In this document: positions 3,316 through 34,780 of the stretch, in pieces
Layout: every line of letters begins with the position of its first letter
Position numbering within the stretch: the stretch's first letter is position 1
Assembly (NCBI GenBank): GCA_015522785.1
Contig: WALP01000027.1
Location: 1 to 36,821 of the forward strand
Direction: 5' to 3'
Origin: Candidatus Parvarchaeota archaeon
GTDB lineage: Archaea > Nanobdellota > Nanobdellia > CSSed11-243R1
DNA length: 36,821 nucleotides
Notes under the pieces: generated by a model
Databases searched by the model: none
What the model saw: the letters and a program-made list of their open reading frames with translations, nothing else
Told to the model about the DNA's origin: nothing
Program-made: the position numbers and the translations under genes

Positions 3316-3355
3316 GGGTTTATTCATTCTATTGGATTATGCCGGGGTCGCCTAG

Positions 3356-3411
3356 CACCACCCTTTTCTTAAAAGAAAAGCGTGGACGGAAAAGAAGAGG
3401 GTGATGGGTTA
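3356..3411 (+). other. tRNA-Ser intron 1, D-loop 15/16 (56 nt)
   Basis: The central helix pairs exon GCCT (3350-3353) with GGGT (3406-3409) using two G-U pairs. The bulges AG^C and TA^T are cut to join G15 to T16. The core holds tract CTTTTCTT (3363-3370), its complement AAGAAAAG (3373-3380), linker CGTGGACG and mirror tract GAAAAGAA (3389-3396). ACCACCC can also pair with GGGTGAT to close the intron stem. Confidence 0.75.
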
Positions 3412-3435
3412 TCTGGTTATGGCGCTGGCCTGCTA

Positions 3436-3491
3436 GCACCCTTTCTTAGAAAGAAAGCGTGCACGGAAAGAAATTTCCGTGGGTCGTAGTC
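3436..3491 (+). other. tRNA-Ser intron 2, anticodon loop 37/38 (56 nt)
   Basis: This is the canonical archaeal intron site. The central helix pairs exon CTGC (3430-3433) with GTAG (3486-3489); the bulges TA^G and TC^A join A37 to A38. The core holds CTTTCTT (3441-3447), AAGAAAG (3451-3457), linker CGTGCACG (3458-3465) and mirror tract GAAAGAA (3466-3472). CACGGAAA also pairs with TTTCCGTG downstream, an alternative hairpin. Confidence 0.85.
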
Positions 3492-3523
3492 AGCCAGTTT
3501 CCTTCGGGATCCGTGAGTTCGAA

Positions 3524-3574
3524 AGAGCCTTTCTCTTGCGAAGAGAAACCCTCGGGAAAGAGAAGCTCCGATTT
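3524..3574 (+). other. tRNA-Ser intron 3, T-loop 59/60 (51 nt)
   Basis: Exon TTCG (3518-3521) faces CGAT (3569-3572), giving three pairs and a U-U mismatch. The bulges AA^A and TT^T restore the T-loop TTCGAAT. The inner stem is GAGC/GCTC. The core tracts are CTTTCTCTT (3529-3537), AAGAGAAA (3541-3548) and mirror GAAAGAGAA (3556-3564): all three differ from the other copies in a matching way. Confidence 0.75.
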
Positions 3575-3588
3575 TCTCACCCCCGGCG

Positions 3589-3597
3589 CTTTTTTTA
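3589..3597 (+). terminator. T-run terminator after tRNA-Ser
   Basis: A run of seven T residues starts 2 nt after the discriminator base, a typical archaeal intrinsic termination signal. Confidence 0.55.
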
Positions 3598-3633
3598 GAA
3601 AAATTAATAATCAACATTTTCATTAATATTCAC

Positions 3634-4242
3634 ATGTACATAGAAGAAATAGGAAATAGAAAATATTTTGCCGAAGTTATTGCGGATGACCTGCTTAAAA
3701 AATCTTTTCTAAAAATTTGGTGGAACAATAACGGCAAAGACATCTCGCTTGAACTTTACCCAGGGAATGGACTGGAGTATATTGTTGATAACTACACTGA
3801 AAGTGAAAGTATTAATGGTGTGTACAAACAAATGTTAAGCTCATTATCCGAAGTAGCAACAGGCATTAAAACAGGAATTGGGGTGTGGAAAGGCGGAAGG
3901 ATAAGGTTTTCATACTGGGTTAATGAAGAAGGCATATTCTTTGTTGATGAAAATGAAGATGAAGTTGAGAAGCTGACGATTAAAGATATTTTGTCGAGAC
4001 TAAATGGTGTGAAGCCGTTCAATTGGGAATTTGACACGTCGGGCATGAGTTTTATTGAGAAGTTTGCCTATGTGTTTAGTTCTCTTGACAAGAATCCGTG
4101 TCCGTTTATGAACAAGGATAAAATTTGTTTCGCTGATGGAGAACATTGCAATCACTACAGAAAATTTGTGTACTATGGGCACACCTGTCCGAGGTACGAA
4201 ACCGATTTTGAGCTTGAGAAAAAGCTTTTTGGTAAAGTTTAA
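3634..4242 (+). CDS. Unknown protein with a C-terminal four-cysteine motif
   Basis: A 202-residue soluble protein I cannot place in a family. The first 150 residues are mixed alpha/beta. The C-terminal 50 residues carry four cysteines: CPFMNKDKICFADGEHC, then HTCPRY a little further on. This pattern could bind zinc or an iron-sulfur cluster; that is inference only. The ATG at 3634 fits a leaderless transcript, since an AT-rich TATA-like element lies at about 3600-3610. It lies between tRNA-Ser and the next unknown gene, about 80 bp from the latter, which has its own promoter. Confidence 0.7.
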   Translation: MYIEEIGNRKYFAEVIADDLLKKSFLKIWWNNNGKDISLELYPGNGLEYIVDNYTESESINGVYKQMLSSLSEVATGIKTGIGVWKGGRIRFSYWVNEEGIFFVDENEDEVEKLTIKDILSRLNGVKPFNWEFDTSGMSFIEKFAYVFSSLDKNPCPFMNKDKICFADGEHCNHYRKFVYYGHTCPRYETDFELEKKLFGKV

Positions 4243-4323
4243 TGATTCAGTGTTCCGAATTGTATGTGGCGAAATATTTATAACTCTTTAGTCATTACTT
4301 TTTTTGAAATAGGGGTGATTGAT

Positions 4324-4947
4324 ATGGATTTTTTAGAAAAAGTAAATGGTATTGATAAATACAAATTATACACAGGTCCCCTTGAGGATGCCATTCACGC
4401 AATTAGAGCTGATGGGAGAACCCCAATGACTATTGAACAAATAGCACGCAAAAGACTTGAAGTTTATTCGAGTGGAGATGCCAATCATGATAAGGTTTGG
4501 TGGTGGAATGAATCACACTTTGGTGTGTATAACGGTGTTGCGTATTTTGAGGATAAGATTAAAGTTATAGATGGAGACACATTGCTTATGGCTGCTCTTG
4601 AGGGGAGAAAAAATGAATATTCCCTTATGATTAGCGAGGAATTGTATCATTCACTTGAAGGCGAGGAGTTCAAAAAATCAAAATCATACGATAGGAGAGA
4701 CAATTCTTTCTTAAAAGCATTGTTCGGTGATGTGTTTGATGAGTATAAGAAAGTGGCAGAGGATAGGTACATTGGTTTTAGAGGAGATAGATGTGTTTTG
4801 CCAACATTTAATGACTGCCTTAAATTTTGGAAGCCTAAAATACCTGAAGTGCGTGGACTAACAATATCTGGATTGGTGGATGTATCTACTATTTATACGA
4901 CATCTCCCCCAGGGGGGAATTTTGTTGGGGAAATAGCAAAAGAGTAA
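4324..4947 (+). CDS. Unknown 207-residue protein
   Basis: The start at 4324 is chosen because AGGGGTGAT stands 5-8 nt before it and a TATA element (ATATTTATAA, about 4274-4283) lies about 45 bp upstream; the in-frame ATG at 4264 lies before that promoter. The protein is soluble, with no signal peptide or membrane helix. Recognisable stretches such as DKVWWWNESHFGVYNGVAYF and DRYIGFRGDRCVLPTFNDC do not match a family I know. The hydrophilic central region is rich in Lys, Glu and Asp. It is monocistronic; the next gene is tRNA-Val(GAC). Confidence 0.65.
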   Translation: MDFLEKVNGIDKYKLYTGPLEDAIHAIRADGRTPMTIEQIARKRLEVYSSGDANHDKVWWWNESHFGVYNGVAYFEDKIKVIDGDTLLMAALEGRKNEYSLMISEELYHSLEGEEFKKSKSYDRRDNSFLKALFGDVFDEYKKVAEDRYIGFRGDRCVLPTFNDCLKFWKPKIPEVRGLTISGLVDVSTIYTTSPPGGNFVGEIAKE

Positions 4948-5034
4948 CAATCCCTTCCACAAAAGTTTAAAAATGATAATCTTACTTTTCTTTTCATGGG
5001 CCCGTGGCCTAGTGGCTATGGCGTCCGCTTGACG

Positions 5035-5082
5035 AAACCCTTTCTTCCAAGAAAGCATTTACGGAAAGAAGGGTGTTCAAAA
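5035..5082 (+). other. tRNA-Val(GAC) intron 1, anticodon loop 37/38 (48 nt)
   Basis: A full bulge-helix-bulge: exon TTGA (5029-5032) pairs with TCAA (5077-5080), with bulges CG^A and AA^T. Inside, CCTTTCTT can pair with AAGAAGGG to extend the stem. The core tracts are CTTTCTT (5040-5046), AAGAAAG (5049-5055) and mirror GAAAGAA (5064-5070), with linker CATTTACG. Confidence 0.9.
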
Positions 5083-5104
5083 TGCGGGAGATCCCCGGTT
5101 CGAA

Positions 5105-5194
5105 AGCAGCCTTTCTTTAGGAAAGAAAGCCTGCAGGGAAAGAAATTTCTTTTCCCTCAAGGCTTTTCTTTTTAAGAAAAGGCTTGCACGAAAG
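5105..5194 (+). other. tRNA-Val(GAC) intron 2, T-loop 59/60 (90 nt)
   Basis: Exon TTCG (5099-5102) pairs with CGAA (5189-5192); the bulges AA^A and AG^T restore TTCGAAT. The intron holds a first core (CTTTCTTT, AAAGAAAG, linker CCTGCAGG, mirror GAAAGAAA) and then a second hairpin CTTTTCTT/AAGAAAAG, so it looks like a double unit. Confidence 0.8.
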
Positions 5195-5247
5195 TCCGGG
5201 CGGGCCCATTTCTAAAGTTTTAAATATGTAACTCATTTTAATCTTAT

Positions 5248-5601
5248 ATGGCAAAGAAAAAGACAACGAAAAGAAAAACAGCTAAAAGAGCACCAAAGAG
5301 AAAAGTCGTGGAATTGAAAAACAAAGCAGCTATGAATACAGTACACTTGGTTTTTGAGATTTTGGCGGCAGCAGGATTCGCGATTGGGTTAATTCCATTA
5401 GGATATCTGTTCTCTATGTGGTGGGTAATACCAATGACGTTGATATCGATGATTATCTCTGTGATGTGGAGCAAAAAAACGTTGACTTTAGATGTTGTTA
5501 CTTTTATAATGAGTCTATTGTCAATAATACCTATATTGGGTTTTGTTGCAAGGGTTATTGGTATTATAACAGCTGCAGTAGCGGCTAAAGATTTAATTTA
5601 A
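5248..5601 (+). CDS. Small membrane protein with a lysine-rich N-terminal tail
   Basis: The first 20 residues, MAKKKTTKRKTAKRAPKRK, form a very basic tail. Three hydrophobic segments follow (about residues 30-50, 55-70 and 78-112), consistent with a small integral membrane protein of 117 residues. I do not recognise the family. The start is supported by TTTTAAATA at 5218-5226, about 26 bp upstream, so the mRNA is probably leaderless. The tail closely resembles the start of the CBS-domain protein at 12922-13857 and the lysine-threonine repeat protein at 28931-29056. A role in tethering nucleic acid to the membrane is possible but is only inference. Confidence 0.75.
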   Translation: MAKKKTTKRKTAKRAPKRKVVELKNKAAMNTVHLVFEILAAAGFAIGLIPLGYLFSMWWVIPMTLISMIISVMWSKKTLTLDVVTFIMSLLSIIPILGFVARVIGIITAAVAAKDLI

Positions 5602-5607
5602 TTTTTT

Positions 5608-8600
5608 TTATTTTTTTGGTAGTTTGACGGAAACTATTTGTGATTCTCCAAGTTGGTTCATGTGCACTCCGTATATTGTATCTGCATATGAAAGAATTGC
5701 GTCGTTGTGGGTTACGACTATGAACTGCGAGGTTTTTGAATATTCCGACAAAAGCTGGGCAAGTTTTTCTGAGTTTTCCCTGTCAAGAGCTGCTTCAACT
5801 TCGTCCATTATGTAAAATGGAGATGGTATGAATTCCTGAACAGCGAATATGAATGCGAGGGTTACCAGTGTTTTCTCGCCCCCGCTCATCGCTCTAAGGG
5901 ATATGAATTTTTTTCCTCCGGGACGGGCGATTATATCAAGTCCACCTTCAAACGGATTCTCTTCGTTTTCAATTACAAGTTTTGCCTCTCCGTTTGGCGA
6001 AAGAATTGAGAACACCCTTTCAAAGTTCTTCGCGACATTGTTGTATGTTTCAAGGAAAGATTCCCTTTTCTTCTCCTCTACCTCATCCATGACTTTTAGA
6101 ATCTCATTCTTTTCTTCATCAAGCTTGTCATACTTTGCTTTTAGTTCGTTGTATTCCTTTTCGACTTCGTTGTAAACATCAAGGGCGCGGAGATTGACAG
6201 CTCCAAATTGAGATATTATAGATTCTAAATGTTTAATCTCGCTTTCAAGCTCATTAACACTTTTCGTTACTTTTTCTATCTTTATGTCTGAAAATTCTTC
6301 CATTGCAGTGCGCTTGCCTTCAAGTTTCGCATTTGTTTCTGCTATTTTAAGCTTCAAGTTGTTGAAGTCATCTTTTAACTTTTCAATCTTTTCGTCTATT
6401 CTTGCCCTTTTTATTTCAATTTGTTTTATTCTTTCATTGAGTTTGTTTCTTTTGTCATACAACTCCCTTAATTTTGTGTGAAATTTCTTTTCTTCTTCAA
6501 TTTTTTTCTCAAGCTCTTTGTTGAAAGTTTTCAGCTCAATACTGGATTTTTCAATTGCTTCTTTGAAAGAGTTTTCTTCCTTCTCCAAGTCTTTGAGCAA
6601 CTTTTGAGAATGCTCCAAATCTTTTTGAGAGATTTCAATTTCAAATTTGATTCCACCTTTCTTTGCTTCTATCTCATTCAACTTGTTTTGCATTTCATTT
6701 ATCTGGTAATTCAGCTTTTTGATTAGAGAATCATCCACTTTTACTGGAAGGTTCTTCATCTTATCCTCTAGAGATTTCTTCTCATCCTCCTTCTCTTTAA
6801 GTTTCTCCTTTAACTTTTCAAACTTAGTCTCATCAACTTCTTTGATTCCCTCAATTGACGCACTAAGATGGAATATCTCCCCCCGCATATTTGTAATCTC
6901 TTCGATTAATGTTTCTCTTTTGGATTCAATTGTTGAGATACTCGAAGCAATTTCGCTTAATTCTGATTTTATTTTTTCAATTTTTTCATCGATAGGCTCG
7001 CTGCTGAATCCAAGTGTTCCCTTTTGTCTATACCCTCCTGAAATTGCTCCGCTTCGTTCTATTAAATCGCCTTTTAGGGTCACCATCCTATAGCTGTTTA
7101 TGCCAACTTTCTTTGCTGTTTCTATTGAGTCCACGATTAACGTGTCAGAAAGTATGTGTTGAAACACCTTTTCGTATTTCTTGCTGAATTTTACTAAATT
7201 TATAGCATAATCAACTACACCCTCAATCTTGGGTGGTTCCCTTTTGATTTTTTCAGTTTTTAGTTTATCAAGCGGAAGAAATGTTGCCACGCCAAGTTTG
7301 TTGTTGCGCAAATAGTTTATACATTCTTTTGCGGCATTCACATCATCGACTACAATTGCATTGCTTCTCGAACCTGCCGCGACTTTTATAGGTATAGAAT
7401 ATTTTTCATCAACTTTTGCCAAATCATACACCAAACCATGGACTCCTTTTAATTCTCCCCGTTCTTTCGCCGCCAGGACGGCGCGTGTTCCCTTGTTCAA
7501 TAATCCAAGTAGCACGTCTCGCTTTCCTTCGAGGTTATGAAGCTGTTTGTTTAATCTTTCCCTTTCGCTTTTTAGATTTGACAATTTAATCGCGAGATTT
7601 GCATCATTTTCAGCCTTTTCCTTGAGCAAGCGCTCTTTTGTAGAAAGCTCCTTTTTGGTTGTCTCTGCCTTTTTGATTTCATTAAGTTTGTCTTCAAAGG
7701 AAGAAATTTCATTTTTTATCGAAACTATCTCTGTTTCTATCTCACTAATTTTTGAGGCTATCTCGAGCCTTTCCTTGTCGGCGTTGCTTACCCTATTAAG
7801 CTCAACCTTCAACTGGTTTATTTTTGATTTTATTTCTTCCCCTTCATTTATTAGCTGCGGAATTTTTAATTTTGATTGTGTCGCATTTTTCTCATTTATT
7901 GATATATCATTTAATATCTGCTTCTTTCTTTCATTGATTCTTATAATTTCATTCTTTTTTCCTTTTATTTCTGCGTTGAGCTCATTGATTTTAATCCTCA
8001 AATTTTCAATTTGGTTGTTGAGTTCTATCTGTTCCGTTTCGCCAAGCTTTTCTGTTGTGCTGTTTATTTCTTCAATTTCTTTTGTGATATCCTCTATTTT
8101 ATTTGATAACTCCGCTTTTTGATTAGTTAACTTATCTATTTCTTCTTCTTTTGCTTTTAATTTCTCGTCAAGCTTCTGCCTTTCGGAATTTATATACTCC
8201 ATCTCCTTGAATATCCTTGCCGCTTTGGAGTATCTTAGTTTTTCATTTAAATCTTTGAATTTTTCAGCTTCATCTTTTTCTTTCTTTAGCTCCTCCATAT
8301 GTCTTATTTTTTCATTTAGGATGATGCGAGCTTCTTTGAGTTTTTGTTCTACTTTATCTATTTCTAAAAGGCATTTGTGTTTTTTTTCTTCATATATAGA
8401 AATTCCGGACAAATCCTCGATTATTTTTCTTCGTTCGTCAGATGACAATTCAACAAATTTTTGGATTTCCCCCTGCATGACAATATTATACCCGTCAGCA
8501 TCGATGTTTGCATAAGCAAGTAAACTTTTTACGTAATCTCTTGTCTCCCTTTTCCCGTTTACGCGGAATAAGCTTCTCCCTTCTTTATCAACTTTCCTGC

Positions 8601-8904
8601 TTATTCTTAGCTCATCTTCATCGATAGGAAACTTTCTGTTTTTATTATCGATTATAATAGTTACTTTAGCGAATTTGCTTGGCGGAAGTTTTTTTCCACC
8701 ATTGAACACCAAATCCCCAAGCCTTTCAGCCCTTAAATCCTTTTTAGATGCTTTTCCCAAAACAAAGCATATTGCTTCGGTTACGTTACTCTTCCCGCTC
8801 CCATTCGGGCCCATGACACAGTTCAATCCCTCAGGAAAAGTGATTTCTTTTCTTCCAGAGAAAGATTTGAATCCAAATATTTCAAGCTTTTTGATGTGGT
8901 TCAT
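5608..8904 (-). CDS. smc: SMC chromosome condensation ATPase
   Basis: SMC forms a ring-shaped dimer that compacts and segregates chromosomes with ScpA and ScpB, both encoded in this window (20946-22137). The N-terminal Walker A is GPNGSGKSN at residues 32-40. Long coiled coils flank a hinge at about residues 480-640 (GVHGLVYDLAKVDEKYSIP to the IERSGAISGG region). The C-terminal head carries the ABC signature MSGGEKTLVTLAF near residue 1006 and Walker B FYIMDEVEAALD near 1030. At 1098 residues it is slightly shorter than most SMCs. An AT-rich element (TTTAAAAA on the minus strand, about 8931-8941) lies about 30 bp before the start. It is transcribed alone, away from scpAB. Confidence 0.97.
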   Translation of the reverse strand: MNHIKKLEIFGFKSFSGRKEITFPEGLNCVMGPNGSGKSNVTEAICFVLGKASKKDLRAERLGDLVFNGGKKLPPSKFAKVTIIIDNKNRKFPIDEDELRISRKVDKEGRSLFRVNGKRETRDYVKSLLAYANIDADGYNIVMQGEIQKFVELSSDERRKIIEDLSGISIYEEKKHKCLLEIDKVEQKLKEARIILNEKIRHMEELKKEKDEAEKFKDLNEKLRYSKAARIFKEMEYINSERQKLDEKLKAKEEEIDKLTNQKAELSNKIEDITKEIEEINSTTEKLGETEQIELNNQIENLRIKINELNAEIKGKKNEIIRINERKKQILNDISINEKNATQSKLKIPQLINEGEEIKSKINQLKVELNRVSNADKERLEIASKISEIETEIVSIKNEISSFEDKLNEIKKAETTKKELSTKERLLKEKAENDANLAIKLSNLKSERERLNKQLHNLEGKRDVLLGLLNKGTRAVLAAKERGELKGVHGLVYDLAKVDEKYSIPIKVAAGSRSNAIVVDDVNAAKECINYLRNNKLGVATFLPLDKLKTEKIKREPPKIEGVVDYAINLVKFSKKYEKVFQHILSDTLIVDSIETAKKVGINSYRMVTLKGDLIERSGAISGGYRQKGTLGFSSEPIDEKIEKIKSELSEIASSISTIESKRETLIEEITNMRGEIFHLSASIEGIKEVDETKFEKLKEKLKEKEDEKKSLEDKMKNLPVKVDDSLIKKLNYQINEMQNKLNEIEAKKGGIKFEIEISQKDLEHSQKLLKDLEKEENSFKEAIEKSSIELKTFNKELEKKIEEEKKFHTKLRELYDKRNKLNERIKQIEIKRARIDEKIEKLKDDFNNLKLKIAETNAKLEGKRTAMEEFSDIKIEKVTKSVNELESEIKHLESIISQFGAVNLRALDVYNEVEKEYNELKAKYDKLDEEKNEILKVMDEVEEKKRESFLETYNNVAKNFERVFSILSPNGEAKLVIENEENPFEGGLDIIARPGGKKFISLRAMSGGEKTLVTLAFIFAVQEFIPSPFYIMDEVEAALDRENSEKLAQLLSEYSKTSQFIVVTHNDAILSYADTIYGVHMNQLGESQIVSVKLPKK

Positions 8905-9008
8905 TCTAATTTAGTATAAGTTTAGATTGTTTTTAAATCATTGTGTCTAATAATCTATTGAAATTAAAAAAATATAAAGGTGCTCACAGTTAAATTAATG
9001 GGTCAAAA

Positions 9009-10526
9009 ATGAGGAAGCCAATGAAAAATTATATAATTCGTATTGGGACTACTAAAGTAGCAGTGTCCATAAATAAGGAAGAAGGCAAATTTGTTCCGAT
9101 TTACACTCTTAACTTGCCAAAATTGGAACCCGCAACACTTGCTTTTTTTGAGGATGTTAGGGACAAGTTGATATCCACAGTTCCAATTAAATTGGAAGTT
9201 CTTAGGGACCCAACAGAATTTGAGAAAATTAAATATGTGCTTTCTAATAAGGCAACAGAACTTATTAAAAAAGGGCTTCCATCAGCGCCTGATGAAGTCG
9301 TTGATTTTGGTGTGACCTTTTTGTTGAATGAAATGCTTGGATTAGGCAATATTGAATTTTTGCTTCATGACACAAATCTTGAAGAAATTGTCATTAATGA
9401 CAGTAAGGAACCAATTTGGGTTTATCACAAAGAGTTAGGTTGGCTTCAAACAAATATTATCGTTGATAGCGAAGAACAAATAAAAAATTATGCGTCAATT
9501 GTTGGCAGGCGTGTTGGACGACAGATAACTATCTTAAACCCGCTTATGGATGCCCATTTAATAACAGGAGACAGAGTTAATGCTACCCTGTTCCCAATTT
9601 CTACAAAAGGCAACACATTGACTATAAGAATGTTCAGGAGGAAGCCTTGGACAATTACTGATTTCATAAAAAACAAAACACTAAATTATGAAACTGCGGC
9701 GTTGTTATGGCTTGCAATTCAGTATGAAATGAGTATAATCATCGGCGGCGGAACTGCAAGTGGAAAGACAAGTATGCTAAATGTAATTCTTCCGTTCATA
9801 CCGCCAAATCAAAGGATAATTAGCATAGAAGAGACAAGGGAAATTAACCTACCCACCTTCTTGCATTGGGTCCCCCTTACAACAAGAGACCCTAATCCTG
9901 AGGGAAAAGGCGAAGTCACAATGCTTGACTTGTTGATAAACTCCCTTAGAATGAGGCCTGATAGAATTGTTGTGGGAGAAGTTAGGAGACAACAAGAGGC
10001 AGAAGTTTTGTTCGAGGCATTAAACACTGGGCATTCTGTTTATGCGACACTTCATGCAAACACTTCAGAAGAGGCATTTAGGAGACTTACATCACCGCCG
10101 ATAAATCTCCCAAAGGATTTGATTCGTTCTCTTCCATTATTCACCATTATGTTTAGGCAGCGCAGGAAGAATATAAGGAGATTGTTTGAGATATCCGAAG
10201 TTGTTTCGAATAATGATGTCAAATTAAATGTGCTCTATAGATGGGACGCGAAAAAAGATGTGCAAGTTAAGATGGGTGAATCAAAGAGGTTGATTCAAGA
10301 GATTAAAATGTTCACTGGATTGAGCAAGGAAAAGCTTGATGAAGATTTGAATGAAAAGAAAAAAATTCTCAAGTGGATTGTGGAACATGATATAAATACT
10401 GTCAACACTGTTGGGAAAGTTGTAAATGAATACTACAAGGATAAAGAAAAATTAATGAAAACAATGAGAGAAAAAAGAGGGGTTGAGGCAGTTTTAGGCA
10501 ACTTCTTTTCAGAGTTAGGAGAGTAA
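9009..10526 (+). CDS. tadA: Type IV pilus assembly ATPase (TadA/GspE/VirB11 family)
   Basis: A secretion ATPase that powers pilus assembly at the inner face of the membrane. Walker A is IIGGGTASGKTSML at about residues 243-256. The Asp box ISIEETREI follows. Walker B is in RMRPDRIVVGEVR at about 313-325, and the His box ATLHANTSEEAFRR follows. The N-terminal domain of about 200 residues is typical of archaeal GspE-like ATPases, and the 505-residue length is normal. The start ATG lies about 30 bp after an AATATAAAG TATA element. The stop is 2 nt before the next start, so it heads an operon with the two membrane platform genes. Confidence 0.93.
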   Translation: MRKPMKNYIIRIGTTKVAVSINKEEGKFVPIYTLNLPKLEPATLAFFEDVRDKLISTVPIKLEVLRDPTEFEKIKYVLSNKATELIKKGLPSAPDEVVDFGVTFLLNEMLGLGNIEFLLHDTNLEEIVINDSKEPIWVYHKELGWLQTNIIVDSEEQIKNYASIVGRRVGRQITILNPLMDAHLITGDRVNATLFPISTKGNTLTIRMFRRKPWTITDFIKNKTLNYETAALLWLAIQYEMSIIIGGGTASGKTSMLNVILPFIPPNQRIISIEETREINLPTFLHWVPLTTRDPNPEGKGEVTMLDLLINSLRMRPDRIVVGEVRRQQEAEVLFEALNTGHSVYATLHANTSEEAFRRLTSPPINLPKDLIRSLPLFTIMFRQRRKNIRRLFEISEVVSNNDVKLNVLYRWDAKKDVQVKMGESKRLIQEIKMFTGLSKEKLDEDLNEKKKILKWIVEHDINTVNTVGKVVNEYYKDKEKLMKTMREKRGVEAVLGNFFSELGE

Positions 10527-10528
10527 AA

Positions 10529-12393: not shown

Positions 12394-12446
12394 TTTGACT
12401 AAATCTTTATATATATTAATTAGTTCCCATATCTTGGTGATATTAC

Positions 12447-12920: not shown

Positions 12921-12921
12921 A

Positions 12922-18598: not shown

Positions 18599-20890
<2,292 letters not shown>

Positions 20891-28392: not shown

Positions 28393-28403
28393 TTTTTAGA
28401 AAA

Positions 28404-28411
28404 TTTTAAAA
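28404..28411 (+). promoter_or_regulatory. TATA box of initiator tRNA-Met
   Basis: TTTTAAAA lies 28-35 bp before the first base of the initiator tRNA. The peptidase gene ends only 12 bp before it, so this is the likely promoter of the tRNA. Confidence 0.55.
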
Positions 28412-28477
28412 GGGTTCGCTTGACTAACAACTAGTGATAGCGGGATAGACTAGCCTGGAGTGGTCGCCGGGCTCATA

Positions 28478-28524
28478 AAAGCCTTTCTTCCGAAGAAAGC
28501 CTTGGGAAAGAAGGGTTCAGGGAG
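28478..28524 (+). other. Initiator tRNA intron 1, anticodon loop 37/38 (47 nt)
   Basis: Exon CTCA (28472-28475) faces AGGG (28519-28522): three pairs and one mismatch. The bulges are TA^A and AG^A. The core tracts are CTTTCTT (28483-28489), AAGAAAG (28493-28499) and mirror GAAAGAA (28506-28512), with a shortened linker CCTTGG. Confidence 0.8.
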
Positions 28525-28546
28525 ACCCGGAGGTCGGTGGTTCAAA

Positions 28547-28614
28547 AGGCACTTTCTCTCTTTGAAAAGAGAGAACCTGCGCTAAGAGAGAAACTCTTGG
28601 CGGTGCTTTGAAAG
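28547..28614 (+). other. Initiator tRNA intron 2, T-loop 59/60 (68 nt)
   Basis: Exon TTCA (28541-28544) pairs with TGAA (28609-28612); the bulges AA^A and AG^T restore TTCAAAT. The interior is nearly identical to the T-loop intron of tRNA-Val(CAC) apart from a 41-nt insertion there. The tracts TTCTCTCTT and AAGAGAGAA (twice) give a symmetric version of the core. Confidence 0.85.
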
Positions 28615-28634
28615 TCCACCTCCCGCTATTTCTC

Positions 28635-28760
28635 TTATTTTACTTTCTTATCAAAGAATTCATCCCAAGTTACAGGACGTCCTGCCTTGGATGACATTCT
28701 CATTTTCTTTTTTATCAGCTTTTCATATACTTTTTTTGATATAGTTATAGTCGTTTTCAT
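28635..28760 (-). CDS. 41-residue ribbon-helix-helix-like protein (antitoxin-like)
   Basis: A short gene. The sequence starts MKTTITISKKVYEKLIKKKM and ends with GRPVTWDEFFDKKVK. The T-I-T-I-S strand followed by a K-V-Y-E-K-L helix is the pattern of archaeal ribbon-helix-helix antitoxins of the VapB type. The mRNA looks leaderless: ATTTAAATA (28782-28790) lies about 26 bp before the ATG. A perfect 8-bp inverted repeat flanks that TATA box, as for an autorepressor. No toxin gene is adjacent; the next gene in its direction lies beyond the initiator tRNA on the other strand. An orphan regulator or solitary antitoxin is the best guess. Confidence 0.6.
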   Translation of the reverse strand: MKTTITISKKVYEKLIKKKMRMSSKAGRPVTWDEFFDKKVK

Positions 28761-28768
28761 AAATTAAA

Positions 28769-28802
28769 TAATGTAAATAAAGTATTTAAATCTTTTACAT
28801 TA
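28769..28802 (-). promoter_or_regulatory. Operator flanking the RHH gene TATA box
   Basis: TAATGTAA (28769-28776) and TTACATTA (28795-28802) form a perfect 8-bp inverted repeat with an 18-bp gap. The TATA box ATTTAAATA of the 41-residue RHH gene lies within the gap. Binding here would block TBP, which fits autoregulation by the encoded protein. Confidence 0.55.
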
Positions 28803-28930
28803 CACATTGTCTTCGTTTTTTTGTCTTTTCTGAAAAGAAAAATGTTTTTAAATAAAAACCTACTTTAAATAATTACTAAAAATCAAGATCTTCAACTAAT
28901 GATTTTGGTTGGAGAGTCGGAGGGATGAAA

Positions 28931-29056
28931 ATGGTTGCTAAAAAGAAGAAAACCACAAAGAAAAAGACAACAAAGAAAAAGAAAACCACAAAGAAAAAGA
29001 CAACAAAGAAAAAGAAAACCACAAAGAAAAAGACAACAAAGAAAAAGAAGAAGTAA
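28931..29056 (+). CDS. Lysine-threonine repeat protein (41 aa)
   Basis: After MVA the protein consists only of Lys and Thr, in the pattern KKKKTTKKKTT repeated three times, with charge near +30. I choose the ATG at 28931 because GGAGGG (28918-28923) lies 7 nt before it; the ATG at 28925 is too close. The promoter TTTTTAAATAAAAA is at about 28845-28857. The composition resembles detached histone H1-like or nucleoid-protein tails and matches the N-terminal tails of two other proteins in this window. Nucleic-acid binding is inferred from charge only. Confidence 0.65.
   Translation: MVAKKKKTTKKKTTKKKKTTKKKTTKKKKTTKKKTTKKKKK
28943..29050 (+). repeat. 33-bp in-frame tandem repeat, about three copies
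   Basis: The coding repeat unit is 11 codons of AAG/AAA with two Thr pairs (ACC ACA and ACA ACA). The copies are nearly identical at the DNA level, including the alternation of Thr codons, so they arose by recent duplication of 33 bp and copy number may vary among strains. Confidence 0.7.
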
Positions 29057-29080
29057 TTAAGCTTCTTCATTTTTTTCTTT

Positions 29081-30007
29081 TTATTTTAATGTTATAATTC
29101 TTATCAAATCCCCAAAATTCTTCGAGATATAATCCATTATTTTCTTGTTAGGGCTCGCAGGGGTTATTAAAACGGCTGGAAGCTTCTTTATATTCGCTTC
29201 CACGTACAACTTGGACATATCCCCCTCACTCACACTTTTCTTGTTCTTAACTTTAACAAAAAATTTCTGGGCGCCCACAGGAGTTTCAAAGGATATAATA
29301 AAATTTGATTCACTTCTTCCGATTTCTTCATGCAAAACCTTGGCGCCTTTCTCCTGAAAATACTCAACCGCTTTCTTTTCAAGCTCGCCTTTGGCGACAG
29401 CTTTCCTCGGCTTCTTGGTTTTTGGCTTTGGAGTTTCTTTTGGCGCCTCGACTTTCAGCTCCGTTTCGACTTTGGGTTCCAATTTTATCTCTTTTATCTC
29501 CTGCTTTTCCTCAGCCGGGACCTCCTTTACAACTTCGGGTTTGGATTCTTCGTTTGGAACATTGAATTTTTCTTTTAAGATGTTGTTGAACTCCTCGTCG
29601 CTTACAGAATAATGTCTCCAACAATAAACTTCCTTGTCATCGTGCTTTATCTGCAGATAGTCTACAAAATCTTTCAAGTCGGAAAGCAAAACCCTCTCTT
29701 GCGGATACAAGTCATCTCTAAATGCAACTTTTAATTCTTTGAGCCTGTTAAGCGCCTTTTTTTCAAGCTCATTTAACTCCGGGTAAAGCATGCTTCGCAC
29801 TCTTTGCTCCTGTCCGCTTATATAATATAGTGGTGAGGAACCAACTTTTCTATGAGAAATCTTTACATATCCCTTGTTGATTAAAGTGGATAGAATCGCA
29901 GACGCAAGAAATGTTTCCACACCTAATTCTTTAGATACTTCAATCGGAAGAATGGGGCCCCGCCTTTGGATGATTTCAACAACTTTTGCTTCTTTTTCGT
30001 TTAACAT
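29081..30007 (-). CDS. Winged-helix protein with a C-terminal nuclease-like domain
   Basis: Residues 1-70 form a winged helix (IIQRRGPILPIEVSKELGVETFLASAILSTLINKGYVKIS). The middle of about 70 residues is helical, and a Pro/Lys/Glu-rich linker spans about 150-205. The C-terminal 100 residues (KKAVEYFQEKGAKVLHEEIGRSESNFIISFETP to PAVLITPAS) look like a restriction-endonuclease-like fold, though the catalytic set is not clear, so it may be a pseudonuclease. I use the ATG at 30007, since AATTTATAAAG lies about 26 bp upstream. Role unknown; DNA binding is inferred from the winged helix. Confidence 0.7.
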   Translation of the reverse strand: MLNEKEAKVVEIIQRRGPILPIEVSKELGVETFLASAILSTLINKGYVKISHRKVGSSPLYYISGQEQRVRSMLYPELNELEKKALNRLKELKVAFRDDLYPQERVLLSDLKDFVDYLQIKHDDKEVYCWRHYSVSDEEFNNILKEKFNVPNEESKPEVVKEVPAEEKQEIKEIKLEPKVETELKVEAPKETPKPKTKKPRKAVAKGELEKKAVEYFQEKGAKVLHEEIGRSESNFIISFETPVGAQKFFVKVKNKKSVSEGDMSKLYVEANIKKLPAVLITPASPNKKIMDYISKNFGDLIRIITLK

Positions 30008-30040
30008 CAATATCTATTTGCGTTCTTTCTTTATAAATTG

Positions 30041-31192
30041 TTAGTGCCTTTTTGATTTGTATTCTTTTATTACTCTCTCAATTAGAACTCCTTTCTTGAT
30101 AGCAGAATCAATGTCCTCCTTGTCGACAAAGTGTACTCCCTCTTTTGATTTTATATTAACATCTTTTTCATCAACAATAGTAAATCCTTTTGACAATAAA
30201 ATATCCTTGAGTTTTTTCCCTCTCCTGAACAAAATCACACTTATCCTGTTGCGCTTGAGAAATCCGAGCGTCCTCTTGCTTGGAAGCGTCAATTCTTCAA
30301 CTAAAAGGGCGTCACCGAAGGCATTTTCAATTTTTGAAATCTCATCATCACTTAAATTTTTCACTTTTCTCACAATATAGCAGTCACGTGCCTTAATAAC
30401 CCTACATTCATTTTCCACGAATGAATTTATTTTTTTGAGTTTGCTTATCTCCACTTTGAGAAGTAGTATTTTTTCTTCAAGGGTTTTGATGACGCTTTTG
30501 CGTTTTTCCGCCAGTGATTTCATTTCACTATTAGATTTTTTGAGACTAAGTTTCTTTTTGAGTTTTTTATTTTCATTTTCGAGGAAAACAATTCTCTCTT
30601 TTGATTTCTCAAGCAGTTTTTTAAGCGAGTCTATTTCTTTTTTCATGGATGTTGTTAAACTTTCCTTTTCAATATACCTGCTTCTCTTTTTTCGCTGAAG
30701 GTTTATTTTCTCAACTTTTTCCTTTGCGGCGTCCTTTATGCTTTTTGCCCCGCCAAGAATCAATTTCTTTTTTATTTCATCCCCCTTTTCAGGCTTCCCT
30801 ATCTCATCAATGTATACGTCAACTCTTCTGAATAATGAATTGTATTTTTTAAACGCGAACAAGGCAGCCGCGCAGGAGTCCCTCTGGTGGTCATCCTTTG
30901 TGGGGAGTCCGCTTGTCATTTTTTGCTTTTCGCCGACTTTTAAGTCATATGGAGGATGCACGAGTTTTGCCTTCAGGAGCATGCTGAGTTTTTTGACAAT
31001 AAATGGGGGAACTTTCACATCACATGCGATTACAATCGGAATTCCAACAGATTCCATCCACGAGATGATTTTCTCAATACCCATTTTTTTCGAACTGTAT
31101 GTCTTGACTAATTTTCCGTTTAAGTCAATGGCGCAAAGCCCAGTGGTTATCCCCGGGTCGACTCCGACAATCAGGTATTTTTTATTCTTCAT
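30041..31192 (-). CDS. DUF460 / RuvC-YqgF-like predicted nuclease
   Basis: A conserved archaeal family (COG2433). The N-terminal RNase H-like domain starts LIVGVDPGITTGLCAIDLNG and includes the conserved TSGLPTKDDHQRDSCAAALFAF. A coiled coil follows at about residues 175-260, then a basic C-terminal domain with NRISVILFRRGKKLKDIL. I use the ATG at 31192, preceded by AAAGG; an upstream in-frame start would reach into the nuclease gene. It overlaps the XPF-type nuclease gene by 11 bp and so belongs to the repair operon 33757-30041. A role in DNA repair or recombination fits both fold and context. Confidence 0.85.
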   Translation of the reverse strand: MKNKKYLIVGVDPGITTGLCAIDLNGKLVKTYSSKKMGIEKIISWMESVGIPIVIACDVKVPPFIVKKLSMLLKAKLVHPPYDLKVGEKQKMTSGLPTKDDHQRDSCAAALFAFKKYNSLFRRVDVYIDEIGKPEKGDEIKKKLILGGAKSIKDAAKEKVEKINLQRKKRSRYIEKESLTTSMKKEIDSLKKLLEKSKERIVFLENENKKLKKKLSLKKSNSEMKSLAEKRKSVIKTLEEKILLLKVEISKLKKINSFVENECRVIKARDCYIVRKVKNLSDDEISKIENAFGDALLVEELTLPSKRTLGFLKRNRISVILFRRGKKLKDILLSKGFTIVDEKDVNIKSKEGVHFVDKEDIDSAIKKGVLIERVIKEYKSKRH

Positions 31193-31859
31193 ATTCCTTT
31201 TCCACAATTTCCTTGATTTTTTTGGCTTTTTTGTCGCCGATTTTTTCAACTTTTTTGAGTTCCTTAATCTCGGCGTTCACCAGATTCTTTATTGTCTTGA
31301 AATGAGAAAGCAGGTTTTGGGCAATACCCCTTCCAATTCCCGGAAAACTTGTCACTATATATTCCTGCAACAATTTAGGTGACATTGGTTTTTTCTCCCC
31401 TCTTAAGGAAATCTTCACTTTTTTGTCAAGCTGCTCCCTGCTTGCAATCATGTAAAGGAACAATGCTGTTTCCTCCTCGCCCGTCGTCTGGATTATGGGT
31501 ATCCTAAAGTCTATCGCGAGGGATGCGATTGCCCCGCGTATGGCGTTAGGGTGCATCATCCTTTCGGTGTACATATCCTCAAGCCCCTCAACAATTATGA
31601 CTGGCTTCTCGAAGTTTTCGGTTAAGTTGGATATCTGGGAAAAAAGCCGCCCGTCGACAATCGACTGCAGGAAGTCTTTGACTGTTTTTCTTTCGACGCA
31701 AACCCTTTCGGATAGAATGAAATCCCCAACCTGCAACTGGACGCTGTTTATGTTCGCGCCCAACTCATAAAGTTTTTTGACGACTCCGCTCCGCAGTTCC
31801 CGCGTGTCGACTATTATCTTGACTTCAGAATTCTTCGATTCGTTTTTGTTTTTCTCCAT
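31182..31859 (-). CDS. XPF/ERCC4-type nuclease (Hef nuclease half)
   Basis: An ERCC4 nuclease that cuts branched DNA such as stalled forks. The catalytic signature is VERKTVKDFLQSIVDGRLFSQI (ERK-X3-D) near residues 53-74, preceded by IIVDTRELRSGVVKKL. Two helix-hairpin-helix motifs follow (VTSFPGIGRGIAQNLLSHF and LKKVEKIGDKKAKKIKEIV). In many archaea this domain is fused to a DEAH helicase as Hef. Here it is a separate gene whose start lies 35 bp inside the helicase gene, in another frame, with AAGGAAA before its ATG. Confidence 0.92.
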   Translation of the reverse strand: MEKNKNESKNSEVKIIVDTRELRSGVVKKLYELGANINSVQLQVGDFILSERVCVERKTVKDFLQSIVDGRLFSQISNLTENFEKPVIIVEGLEDMYTERMMHPNAIRGAIASLAIDFRIPIIQTTGEEETALFLYMIASREQLDKKVKISLRGEKKPMSPKLLQEYIVTSFPGIGRGIAQNLLSHFKTIKNLVNAEIKELKKVEKIGDKKAKKIKEIVEKEYEE

Positions 31860-33309
31860 TTTCCTTCAACTCGTTCAAGGCGGACTTCATGCGCCTTTCC
31901 TTGTGGAACGACACCCAGTAATACTTCTCATCTATAGTGTCTTTTGTTATTAATAAAATAACCTCCCCGGGAGCGTGCCTTGCTGTTCGTCCGCGCCGCT
32001 GGATTGTCCTGAGGGCGCTTGGCACGGGCTCGAAGAAAATTACTTTGCTGACTTCCGGTATGTCAAGTCCCTCTTCGCCTATGCTGCTGCTAACGAGGAC
32101 ATTGAATTCCCCTTCCCTGAACTTGTTGAGAATTTCAACCTGCCTTTTCTGGCTCATGCCTTTCTTTTGTCCGATGAATTTGACTGGCGTTAGCTTGTCG
32201 TTTGTTTCTAAAAATTCTATAACTCTGTCAACGGTGTTCCTGTAATTTGTGAACACGATTGTCTTTTCGTCCGGGTCAATCAATTCAAGGAGCTTGCCGA
32301 ACTTTGGGTGCTCAATTCCCTTTGACTCCAGCTCAAAAGTCCGCGCCATTGCTTCCCTAAAATTAGTGTCATTCATTATAGCCTTTGTCGCCTTTACTTT
32401 GTGATACTGCTCTTTTAATCTTTCTATGAATCTTGCAAGAGGTTTAATTCCCTGGGTTTGCAGAAGCTCGAGGCAGTGCATTATCTTCGTGCACGCCGCC
32501 ACGATTGAAACATATTTGAAAAAGGCTGGCTCCTTTGTCCCGACTAATTTTCCCTGCAGCTTGAGCATGTCGCTTTTTTTGATTTTGGTGATGTCAGCGC
32601 TTTTGATTATATTGGCATCCTTTAATTCCTTGAGTCTTGTCCTCAGCGCCTTTTCAAAAAGTTCCTTTAGCTCCTTCAGGCTTTCTGGGAGTTCTATGAA
32701 AACCTTTTTCACTTTCATCTTCTTGACATACTGCTTGACGTCGGGGGAGCTTTCGTCGCGCACTTCGACTTTTTCTATGAAAAGGTTTTTCCTGATTTCG
32801 TTTATTTTTTCCTTATCGCTTCCCGGGCTCGCCGTGAGCGCAAGAATCCTTGGGAGTTTTGATTGGTTCATGTAATTTCTCGCGAGAAAGACATAGTCAT
32901 AATCTCCTATAGCCCTGTGCGCTTCGTCAAAGACAATGAGGGAAACGTCGTCAAACTTTATCCTTCCGCTTACCAAATCATTGGTTATAGTCTGCGGAGT
33001 CGCGAATATGAATTTAGAATTTTCCCAAATGGTTTTCCTGTCCTCGGGCTTCTTTGCTCCTGTCAGGACGGAAAGTTTCTCGCCATCTAAATTTTCCTCA
33101 AAGGTTTTCTTGTGCTGCTCGCACAGCGGCTTGGTTGGGGCAAGAAACAATACTTTTGAGTTGGGGAATATTTTTGTCCGGTGGACAGCGAGCATTAGTG
33201 CGATTAGCGTTTTTCCCAGCCCAGTTGGAAGTATGACTAATGTGTTTTGTTTTGCGGCGCTGGCGAAAATTTTCTCCTGGTATATCCTCGGCGTCGTCTT
33301 AATTTTCAT
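31825..33309 (-). CDS. hef: Hef/FANCM-family DEAH helicase
   Basis: A superfamily 2 helicase that remodels forks and D-loops. Motif I is LPTGLGKTLIALML near residues 29-42, motif II is FDEAHRAIGDYD near 124-135, and motif VI QRRGRTARHAPGE lies near 440. The insert between the two RecA lobes (about 190-320, rich in Lys) is typical of Hef/FANCM. At 494 residues it equals the helicase half of a full Hef. The nuclease half is encoded by the overlapping next gene. It overlaps the upstream nudix gene by 11 bp. Confidence 0.93.
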   Translation of the reverse strand: MKIKTTPRIYQEKIFASAAKQNTLVILPTGLGKTLIALMLAVHRTKIFPNSKVLFLAPTKPLCEQHKKTFEENLDGEKLSVLTGAKKPEDRKTIWENSKFIFATPQTITNDLVSGRIKFDDVSLIVFDEAHRAIGDYDYVFLARNYMNQSKLPRILALTASPGSDKEKINEIRKNLFIEKVEVRDESSPDVKQYVKKMKVKKVFIELPESLKELKELFEKALRTRLKELKDANIIKSADITKIKKSDMLKLQGKLVGTKEPAFFKYVSIVAACTKIMHCLELLQTQGIKPLARFIERLKEQYHKVKATKAIMNDTNFREAMARTFELESKGIEHPKFGKLLELIDPDEKTIVFTNYRNTVDRVIEFLETNDKLTPVKFIGQKKGMSQKRQVEILNKFREGEFNVLVSSSIGEEGLDIPEVSKVIFFEPVPSALRTIQRRGRTARHAPGEVILLITKDTIDEKYYWVSFHKERRMKSALNELKENGEKQKRIEEF

Positions 33310-33757
33310 TTATCTTCATCTCTACAATTGTCTCATTATCTTTGTCGAAAATGAAAGTGGCGTGAATTTTTTTGCCGGATAAAACTTTTGGCAGCCAGTA
33401 TTTATCATCATCCCACATTTTTTCAAATGGGATTTTGTCGATATCAAACCATTGTGGTTTCATTTCTTCTGTTTCTTTTGGTGTGCCTTCAAAATTTGGT
33501 ACATAAAACAAATGAACAATTTGGTTCCACTCTTCTTTGTGAGGGAATAAAAATGTGATTTCCCCAATTTTATCTAACTTTTGTGCAGTTATTGCTGCTT
33601 CTTCCAGAAGCTCTCTCTTCGCGGCGTCTTCGACATTTTCTTCTTCTTGGACTTTCCCACCAAATCCATTCCACTTTCCTTCTCCGAATCCCCTTTTCTT
33701 CATTCCAAGTAATATTTTGTTTTCATGTGTCACAATACAAAGAGTCGCATTTTTCAT
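33299..33757 (-). CDS. Nudix hydrolase (MutT/MTH1-like)
   Basis: A 152-residue nudix enzyme that probably sanitises oxidised nucleotides. The box is GKVQEEENVEDAAKRELLEE, with the full G-X5-E-X7-R-E-L-X-E-E order. The early GFGEGKWNGFGGKV and the late WFDIDKIPFEKMWDDDKYWLP resemble MTH1/NUDT1. The ATG at 33757 is preceded by GGTGAT. A longer open frame reading through the tRNA-Leu gene is not coding. It begins 23 nt after the tRNA-Leu 3' end with no room for a separate promoter outside the tRNA, so a tRNA-mRNA joint transcript is likely. Confidence 0.92.
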   Translation of the reverse strand: MKNATLCIVTHENKILLGMKKRGFGEGKWNGFGGKVQEEENVEDAAKRELLEEAAITAQKLDKIGEITFLFPHKEEWNQIVHLFYVPNFEGTPKETEEMKPQWFDIDKIPFEKMWDDDKYWLPKVLSGKKIHATFIFDKDNETIVEMKINEN

Positions 33758-33811
33758 TTTATCACCATAAAAGTATGAGTGCGGGAGGCAGGGTTTGAAC
33801 CTGCGTAGGGA

Positions 33812-33843
33812 ATGGTCACCAAGTGCCCAAAGGCACGTCAGCT
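33812..33843 (-). other. tRNA-Leu intron 3, variable arm (32 nt)
   Basis: GGTT (33849-33846) pairs with GACC (33817-33814), with bulges AG^A and AT^T. The interior closes with GTGCC-TTTG-GGCAC. Removal leaves a normal variable arm GGG-TTAGT-CCC. It lacks the pyrimidine/purine core of the others and is the shortest of the set. Confidence 0.75.
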
Positions 33844-33857
33844 CTAACCCACACGGT

Positions 33858-33905
33858 ATCCGCGGCCTTTCTTTTGGTTGAGCTTTTCTTCCAAAGAAAA
33901 GGTCA
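33858..33905 (-). other. tRNA-Leu intron 2, anticodon loop 37/38 (48 nt)
   Basis: This is at the canonical site with the usual length, but the central helix is weak: CTCA faces GCGG with only two good pairs. Inside, CCTTTTCTTTGG pairs with CCAAAAGAAAGG (one mismatch). The core tracts CTTTTCTT, AAGAAAAG and AAAAGAAA are present. Splicing here may need a relaxed motif. Confidence 0.7.
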
Positions 33906-33928
33906 CTTGAGCCGTGCCCGTTTGACCG

Positions 33929-34036
33929 CTCCGGCACTGCCCCTTTCTTTTCCCGAAAAGAAAGGTGTAAGTTGCCCCAAAGAAAAGGGCATCTTTCTTT
34001 CCGTACACGCTTTCTTTTTTTCAAAAGAAAGGGTGT
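33929..34036 (-). other. tRNA-Leu intron 1, D-loop 15/16 (108 nt)
   Basis: The palindrome CCGG of the exon (34042-34039) pairs with a second CCGG (33934-33931); the bulges are AG^A and AG^C. The intron is flanked by a 10-bp direct repeat AGTGCCGGAG (34046-34037 and 33938-33929), so the exact junction is ambiguous by sequence. It holds one full core (linker CGTGTACG) and then a second region with mirror-image pyrimidine tracts CTTTTCTTT and TTTCTTTTC beside an AAAAGAAAGG partner. Confidence 0.8.
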
Positions 34037-34097
34037 CTCCGGCACTCCCGCATATAGGAAACTTTGAAACTACACATTTTTAAATTTTTGTAAAGAA

Positions 34098-34472
34098 CTA
34101 AACGGAATTCTTAATCTTCTCGAGCTGCTTCCTCAGTCTTTCGAACTCACTCCTCAGCTCGTCAAATGATTCAAGCTCATTTGAGGGTTTTGGTTTTTCT
34201 TTTTTTACCTTTGCCTTTGGATGCGGCGCGACAGCGTGCTTTTCCTTTGGCGTTTTCGGGAGGATTGACTCTAGGTGCTTGAATTCTTTTTCTATGTTTG
34301 AGAGCTTTGCAAGAAATTCTTTTCTCTTATTGTTCTTTTCGTCGCTGAGGTTTTTTATGTCTATCATCAAGTTGGAATATCTTGCGAAGTCCTTCGCCAG
34401 CTTCGTGAAAGTAATCTTTAGAAGGTTTGCGTCATCTATCCGGACATAAGTTTCTTCTTTTGCCATTTTCAT
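34098..34472 (-). CDS. Small coiled-coil protein
   Basis: A 124-residue protein. Residues 5-75 are helical, with YVRIDDANLLKITFTKLAKDF at the start. A Lys/Pro linker (about 77-97) precedes a final coiled coil (FDELRSEFERLRKQLEKI). It resembles the C-terminal half of the Pro-rich protein at 34781-35341, which has FIRIDKYKDVIEAINNLGDE and the same run of helices. The ATATTTAAAAA element at about 34493-34503 is 26 bp before the ATG, so the message is leaderless. Function unknown; a protein-binding role is inferred. Confidence 0.7.
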   Translation of the reverse strand: MKMAKEETYVRIDDANLLKITFTKLAKDFARYSNLMIDIKNLSDEKNNKRKEFLAKLSNIEKEFKHLESILPKTPKEKHAVAPHPKAKVKKEKPKPSNELESFDELRSEFERLRKQLEKIKNSV

Positions 34473-34527
34473 CCCATTAAACTAAATCATCCATATTTAA
34501 AAAAGCTTTCAAATGGGCCCGCCCGGA

Positions 34528-34634
34528 CTTCCATACACTGCCAAGAGTTTCTCTCTTAGCGCAGGTCGACGAGACTACGTCTCGACGCAAGCGACGAAGT
34601 CGCTCTGTCTCTCTTTTCAAAGAGAGAAAGTGCT
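34528..34634 (-). other. tRNA-Val(CAC) intron 2, T-loop 59/60 (107 nt)
   Basis: Exon TTCA (34640-34637) pairs with TGGA (34533-34530); the bulges AA^A and AG^T restore TTCAAAT. The intron is homologous to the T-loop intron of the initiator tRNA but has a 41-nt nested insertion (34567-34607) made of two hairpins, GCGAC-TTC-GTCGC and CGAGAC-GTA-GTCTCG. Confidence 0.85.
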
Positions 34635-34677
34635 TTTGAACCGGGGACCTCCACCGCGTGAGGGTGACGTCATACCA

Positions 34678-34725
34678 TTGTCCGCACCACCCCTTTACCA
34701 CCTTTCTTTTTAAAAAGGGCAGCGT
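34678..34725 (-). other. tRNA-Val(CAC) intron 1, D-loop 15/16 (48 nt)
   Basis: Exon GTCT (34731-34728) pairs with GGAC (34683-34680), with bulges AG^A and AA^T. The inner stem CGC/GCG follows directly. The core is degenerate: CCCTTTTT, AAAAAGAAAGG, then AAAGGGG. Removal gives the same D-loop start, TAGTGG, as in the intron-free D-loop of tRNA-Val(GAC), which supports the junction. Confidence 0.8.
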
Positions 34726-34780
34726 CTAGACCACGGGCCCACAGAAATTGAATAGAGAATTAAAAATAAAAAGGTTTGGA

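Follow-up and report, generated by a model that had tools for sequence, protein, structure and literature searches.

All five transfer RNA (tRNA) genes on a 36,821-nucleotide (nt) contig of a Candidatus Parvarchaeota archaeon (WALP01000027.1 of assembly GCA_015522785.1; hereafter the window) are interrupted by introns, and the same condition extends to almost the whole tRNA set of this organism and of two sister species. The insertions are very probably protein-spliced archaeal introns of the bulge-helix-bulge (BHB) type, mostly belonging to one recently expanding family with a core of ~40 nt that has inserted into tRNA genes, ribosomal RNA (rRNA) genes and intergenic DNA. The window is contig 26 of the source genome (G000; 578,669 bases, 68.8% complete, GC fraction 0.364), which we compared with two genomes of the same genus, G001 and G002, each 91% complete. 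The three represent separate species, with median protein identities of 70-76%, and the host is a small, GC-poor nanoarchaeote.

Genes were located with a cloverleaf finder that permits introns after nucleotides 15, 37 and 59. In the window it returned five tRNA genes and no more, all with 7 of 7 acceptor pairs and two or three introns (Table 1); the 12 introns lie at 15/16 (three), 37/38 (four), 59/60 (four) and in a variable arm (one). These counts, by gene and by site, are exactly those of a first-pass annotation made from the sequence of the window, which had also proposed mature cloverleaves of 72-85 nt; we obtained spliced forms of 71-84 nt plus the discriminator, and ARAGORN accepted all five as Val(gac), Met(cat), Ser(gct), Val(cac) and Leu(caa). 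Leu(CAA) had the lowest finder score of the five (19.7), although it has orthologues in both sister genomes. At scores of at least 21 the finder detected 26 genes in G000 and none in a Markov-shuffled copy of that genome; at scores of at least 19, the corresponding numbers were 29 and two.

ARAGORN found no tRNAs in the unspliced window, nor did Rfam at gathering thresholds or at E ≤ 10, its sole report there being the archaeal signal recognition particle (SRP) RNA. Rfam likewise reported no group I or group II self-splicing intron in the window, and introns of 12-115 nt, the range observed across the genus, have no large catalytic core. Standard tRNA finding without intron settings recovered 2-5 genes in G000, G001 and G002, and ARAGORN with introns allowed was set aside after miscalling anticodons. 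After in silico splicing, ARAGORN accepted 105 of 105 genes from the three genomes. That almost no tRNA is recognized before splicing and every one after it counts in favor of BHB introns; it also warns that standard finders will overlook almost the entire tRNA set of such genomes.

Our tRNA catalogue covers G000 and G001 entirely and G002 nearly entirely. We identified 33 genes with 64 introns in G000 (0, 1, 2 and 3 introns in 2, 8, 13 and 10 genes), 35 genes with 72 introns in G001 (0 to 4 introns in 2, 9, 13, 7 and 4 genes) and 37 genes with 74 introns in G002 (0 to 4 introns in 4, 6, 15, 10 and 2 genes), so that ~90-94% of tRNA genes are interrupted, with ~2 introns per gene. Summed over the three genomes, introns occur at 37/38 (77), 15/16 (54), 59/60 (48), 53/54 (12), the variable arm (9), 30/31 (5), 20/21 (2), 26/27 (2) and the D stem (1). 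Six genes carry four introns: Leu(UAA), Leu(UAG), Ile(UAU) and Ser(GCU) in G001, and Leu(UAA) and Leu(UAG) in G002; in Ile(UAU) and both Leu(UAG) genes at least one boundary was set by hand. Added to the catalogue afterwards were an intron-containing Lys(UUU) gene of G002 and the elongator tRNA-Met of G000 and G002, which has a 28-nt intron at the acceptor/D junction (8/9) that is absent in G001. The four fixed sites of the first-pass annotation therefore describe the window, but the genus uses at least nine, including 8/9, 20/21, 26/27, 30/31 and 53/54. In tRNA-Arg(UCU) of G002 (C21, 107027-107226), introns at 30/31 and 37/38 are just seven exon nucleotides apart, and the second is only 12 nt long.

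Intronless genes number 2 of 34 in G000 and at most four in each sister genome. Intact second copies, which would make the interrupted genes pseudogenes, were absent from G000, where 33 genes represent 33 anticodons in a metagenome-assembled genome (MAG) that is 68.8% complete. In another genus of the same family (G003), about half of 32 tRNA matches span 98-137 nt, which suggests single introns, and are devoid of the core motif; the multi-intron state seems to be specific to the window's genus. These results support the earlier proposal of a genome-wide invasion in a separate low-GC lineage. That proposal was framed on tRNAs, however, and the invasion extends to rRNA genes and intergenic DNA.

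To describe the splice junctions we used H, the pairing of 5' exon nucleotides -6 to -3 with intron nucleotides -6 to -3; boundaries were set from tRNA geometry without reference to H. Most junctions in the window show a helix of 4 base pairs (bp) with 3-nt bulges. Mean H at 37/38 was 2.39, compared with 0.98 +/- 0.15 when introns were swapped between tRNAs (1000 permutations, maximum 1.49) and at most 0.32 when they were slid by 1-3 nt. At 59/60, H was 3.45, compared with at most 0.76 when slid. In the three genomes H was at least 3.2 at 114 of 182 junctions (33/43 at 59/60, 30/48 at 15/16, 11/11 at 53/54, 30/67 at 37/38, 4/4 at 30/31 and 6/6 in the variable arm). Because the central helix at 37/38 contains anticodon bases, each intron at this site is matched to the tRNA that hosts it. 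At 59/60, the central helix pairs TTCR with YGAA; since the exon there is nearly the same in every tRNA and the T stem serves as the exon helix, a full BHB motif is present at a noncanonical site. The central helix at 15/16 is built on D-stem nucleotides 10-13.

Most of the introns share a core built from a stem of 3-4 bp (X:X'), a mismatch of C with C and a hairpin Y:R with pyrimidine and purine arms (for example CTTTCTT:AAGAAAG), after which come AC and a purine tract R'. It is present in 152 of 182 introns (84%) versus 1 of 182 shuffled introns. The hairpin arms are too variable for MAFFT alignment, and an earlier classifier that used the longest hairpin was replaced because it undercounted the family (110 of 182). 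R' is the mirror image of R, not its complement, and covaries with it in both introns and intergenic copies (window positions 3436-3491 and 2576-2611, for example). Mirror identity in the ACGG subtype (45 elements) was 0.991 versus 0.839 (maximum 0.894) after permutation of tails, in ACCA 0.86 versus 0.756 and in ACGA 0.986 versus 0.868; as the copies are related, these permutations are not independent trials. The order Y-R-R' is what a purine-motif triplex would need. Antiparallel pairing of R' with Y and the loop, considered as a cause of the mirror pattern, can account for introns whose loop is TCC or that have a distal GGTG, but was rejected because it misplaces the G in most introns and fails for intergenic copies. 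Composite or nested introns, in which a second core lies inside or beside the first, occur at window positions 33929-34036 and in G002 (C17, 17467-17659).

Introns without the core are mostly older and unrelated, such as those of 28 nt in Tyr, 31-34 nt in Ile(UAU) and ~32 nt in the variable arm of Leu genes. Among 277 other genomes in the class to which the window belongs, 276 had no match to the core motif; the lone match, in another genus, was hairpin-less and attributable to chance. A viral origin was also rejected: searches of IMG/VR for exact cores returned 0 and 2 matches, both of them protein-coding and hairpin-less.

The distribution of the family indicates frequent movement. Identical 65-nt introns occupy 59/60 in Gly(UCC), Glu(CUC) and Asp(GUC) of G000. 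Of the 118 introns for which a sister species has an orthologue, only 29 were closest to that orthologue, and 68 of 167 introns had their closest relative within their own genome; because the closest relative usually lies in another tRNA, the family has moved often. tRNA-Pro(UGG) has an intron at 37/38 in G000, at 15/16 in G001 and none in G002. The 16S rRNA gene of G001 (C8, 2732-4321) contains a 44-nt family insert whose junction forms a perfect ACCG:CGGT helix flanked by 3-nt bulges, and the G000 gene is empty at that site, with flanks 94-96% identical. In the 23S rRNA genes (L253, L252), one 88-nt insert is shared by G001 and G002 and another is found in G002 alone; G000 lacks both. By inspection, the 88-nt unit in G001 closely resembles 53/54 tRNA introns of the same genome and the 59/60 intron of the Pro-region (GGC) in G000. 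A strict scan found 8, 28 and 16 intergenic cores, on either strand, in G000, G001 and G002, compared with 0, 3 and 2 matches at any location in shuffled sequence, and in 47 comparisons of orthologous gaps the copy was absent in 29 and present in 18. Sequence comparison shows the introns, the BHB pairing, the kinship of the family members and the gain or loss of inserts from one species to another.

RtcB is encoded in both sister genomes, each of which also encodes a single 176-amino acid EndA (in G002 at L172, 2001-2528) that aligns over its full length with M. jannaschii EndA (1a79, E 6.5e-39) and conserves the catalytic Tyr, His and Lys. Relative to crenarchaeal EndA it has a 10-residue gap at the position of the CSL, a lysine-bearing loop; the broad-specificity loop that we sought was lysine-bearing and 11-18 residues long, and the ASL was judged on alignment length only. 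Each sister genome has one PF01974/PF02778 match and no second EndA subunit was seen, whereas the f7 relatives G011 and G023 show two. The EndA search also retrieved records from Jingweiarchaeum, Parvarchaeota and Pacearchaeota. The heteromeric or three-unit endonuclease that the first-pass annotation had suggested seeking was therefore not found, each sister genome having one short, M. jannaschii-like EndA. The lysine-bearing loop of crenarchaea has been described, and loops and heteromeric enzymes correlate with diverse introns (PMC12397907). With a single loop-less EndA and diverse introns, this correlation does not hold here on present evidence, and the view that a tRNA set rich in introns is accompanied by an EndA with loops or several kinds of subunit is called into question. 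In one reading, the strict BHB motif at most insertions, wherever they are placed, would let an ordinary EndA suffice, and the 15/16 and Leu 37/38 introns are test cases for it.

Several observations weigh against the BHB-intron account. The first-pass annotation had given most junctions a 3-4 bp helix with 3-nt bulges, and most have it, but the 37/38 junction of Leu(CAA) in the window has H = 0 and the 15/16 junctions have no outer exon helix. Across the genus, the outer exon helix is lacking at 15/16 and 53/54 introns and the central helix at Leu 37/38 introns; ready acceptance of these three groups would not be expected of an M. jannaschii-type EndA that has no such loop. Splicing by EndA and RtcB is predicted from their genes, neither of which was detected in G000 (68.8% complete), so we infer the machinery from the sister genomes. 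Boundaries were set by hand after inspection in eleven genes, all outside the window, and those of D-loop introns are ambiguous by 1-2 nt. Moreover, there was no match to the Y1 transposase of IS200/IS605-type elements (PF01797) or to reverse transcriptase (PF00078) in the three genomes.

In the mechanism we propose, exon nucleotides -6 to -3 of the primary transcript would pair with the same intron positions, so that three nucleotides bulge out on either strand. Each bulge would be cleaved by EndA behind its second nucleotide, and RtcB would then ligate the exons. Cores of the form X-C-Y-loop-R-C-X'-AC-R' would have been inserted repeatedly in the tRNA, 16S and 23S genes and intergenic DNA of the genus, and tRNA-borne copies could be spliced out because their 3' tails are fitted to the local exon. 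Candidate routes of movement are re-integration after reverse splicing, transposition at the DNA level by a missing transposase, and gene conversion. We tentatively suggest that the family may be an archaeal introner: a genus-specific, non-autonomous element of ~40 nt with a triplex-capable core, which moves at the DNA or RNA level, becomes a BHB intron where the exon permits, is tolerated by a loop-less EndA and has reached the densest tRNA intron load known.

Spread by homologous gene conversion through shared exon sequence (such as the T-loop TTCRA), with no autonomous element, would explain why nearest non-orthologous partners of at least 80% identity are at the same site in 80 cases versus 24 at different sites, and why identical copies are concentrated at 59/60, a site with invariant exon sequence. 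However, those 24 pairs switch site, one 88-nt unit occurs at 59/60, at 53/54 and in 23S rRNA, intergenic cores have no tRNA flank and the 16S insert has no tRNA-like flank, so we regard this explanation as rather unlikely. It is less plausible still that the dispersed hairpins are functional or regulatory elements in their own right (terminators, leaders, chromatin or triplex signals) that tRNA introns have recruited or resemble. The core is under strong structural constraint, mirror purine tract included, and intergenic copies are co-directional in 18 of 24 same-direction gene pairs; yet orthologous gaps are often empty, copies also lie between divergent genes, and the core is in too many tRNA introns for casual recruitment. 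Although DPANN archaea commonly live as symbionts and the MAG does not cover the whole genome, decaying pseudogenes with functional tRNAs elsewhere or imported from a host are scarcely credible: the acceptor stems are perfect, the BHB helices are tailored, each anticodon has a single gene, and both 91%-complete sisters show the same pattern. Every genome is metagenome-assembled, but an assembly or binning artefact can be dismissed almost completely, as three species-level MAGs, from separate records where named, agree and the inserts are precise within otherwise aligned rRNA genes.

Table 1. Interrupted tRNA genes, their introns and a dispersed core copy. Positions refer to the window unless a genome and contig are given; H is defined in the text.
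Feature	Position	Strand	Remarks
tRNA-Ser(GCU), three introns	3341..3588	+	spliced form is Ser(gct) by ARAGORN
tRNA-Ser intron 15/16, 56 nt, family core	3356..3411	+	H 3.2
tRNA-Ser intron 37/38, 56 nt, family core	3436..3491	+	H 3.6
tRNA-Ser intron 59/60, 51 nt, family core	3524..3574	+	H 2.2
tRNA-Val(GAC), two introns	4998..5208	+	cloverleaf finder; ARAGORN on spliced form
tRNA-Val(GAC) intron 37/38, 48 nt	5035..5082	+	H 4.0; 3-nt bulges CG|A and AA|T
tRNA-Val(GAC) intron 59/60, 90 nt, two family hairpins	5105..5194	+	98% identity to G002 Arg(UCG) intron
tRNA-Met(CAU), initiator-like, two introns	28439..28628	+	cloverleaf finder; ARAGORN on spliced form
tRNA-Met intron 37/38, 47 nt	28478..28524	+	H 1.8
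tRNA-Met intron 59/60, 68 nt	28547..28614	+	93% identity to G000 Gly(UCC) intron
tRNA-Leu(CAA), three introns	33780..34051	-	cloverleaf finder; ARAGORN on spliced form
tRNA-Leu intron 15/16, 108 nt, composite of two family hairpins	33929..34036	-	H 4.0; 94% identity to G001 Leu(AAG) intron
tRNA-Leu intron 37/38, 48 nt, family core, no 4-bp central helix	33858..33905	-	H 0
tRNA-Leu variable-arm intron, 32 nt, non-family	33812..33843	-	H 3.6; shared with other Leu genes of the genus (older intron)
tRNA-Val(CAC), two introns	34514..34740	-	cloverleaf finder; ARAGORN on spliced form
tRNA-Val(CAC) intron 15/16, 48 nt	34678..34725	-	H 3.6
tRNA-Val(CAC) intron 59/60, 107 nt	34528..34634	-	H 3.6
Dispersed core copy outside any tRNA	2576..2611	-	3' of SRP RNA, on its opposite strand; GCACCCTTTTGGAAAAAGCGTGCACGGAAAAAGAAG
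Elongator tRNA-Met with 8/9 intron	G000:C30 20168-20290	-	
Elongator tRNA-Met with 8/9 intron	G002:C18 ~20285-20395	+	

A short open reading frame (ORF) at window positions 28928-29055 encodes lysine/threonine-rich repeats (MKMVAKKKKTTKKK...) that are histone-tail-like, and small basic proteins resembling it are encoded near EndA in both G001 and G002.

Large-scale transposition of tRNA introns has been described in the Thermoproteales (Pyrobaculum, Thermofilum) by Sugahara 2008 and Fujishima 2010, as cited in PMC4033280, PMC4090602 and PMC8450103. The richest genome reported has 71 introns in 46 genes, the mean for the order is 0.84 introns per gene, and the reported maximum is three in one gene (PMC8450103). 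As in our genomes, BHB introns there occur at the canonical site and at noncanonical ones such as 53/54, 59/60, 30/31 and 20/21, and one gene may hold several; introns of non-orthologous tRNAs can be almost identical, as we also found; and rRNA genes have introns too. Unlike the Thermoproteales, the present genus belongs to another phylum, has ~2.0 introns per gene and up to four in one gene, carries the core in intergenic DNA as well and has an EndA without the crenarchaeal loop. ARMAN-2, with an epsilon2 EndA, and Nanoarchaeum equitans, with an (alpha-beta)2 EndA (PMC4033280, PMC12397907), are likewise ultra-small archaea whose tRNA introns include noncanonical ones, and N. equitans falls within the same broad group. 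Here, by contrast, we detected a single short EndA with no second subunit or extra loop, far more introns and no split tRNA.

Among Asgard archaea, 92-95% of tRNA genes are interrupted in Atabeyarchaeia and Freyarchaeia, with 228 introns in three genomes, according to extracts of PMC11291895. Over half of those genes have several introns, at many noncanonical sites; the phylum is again a different one, and the extracts describe no shared dispersed element. Intron-rich archaeal tRNA sets are already known, then, from the Thermoproteales and some Asgard archaea; new here are the lineage, the intron density, the four-intron tRNAs and the dispersed core. Eukaryotic introner elements are short, non-coding elements whose copies turn into introns, and these are spliceosomal. 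In the archaeal family EndA and the BHB motif would stand in for the spliceosome, so the likeness would be a functional analogy only, with no homology implied. For the gain of archaeal tRNA introns, transposition has been proposed from the Thermoproteales (PMC4090602). A delimitable unit, sites filled or empty between sisters (16S, 23S, tRNAs and intergenic gaps) and identical copies that mark recent events make the mechanism testable in this genus, where intron gain can be traced almost step by step.

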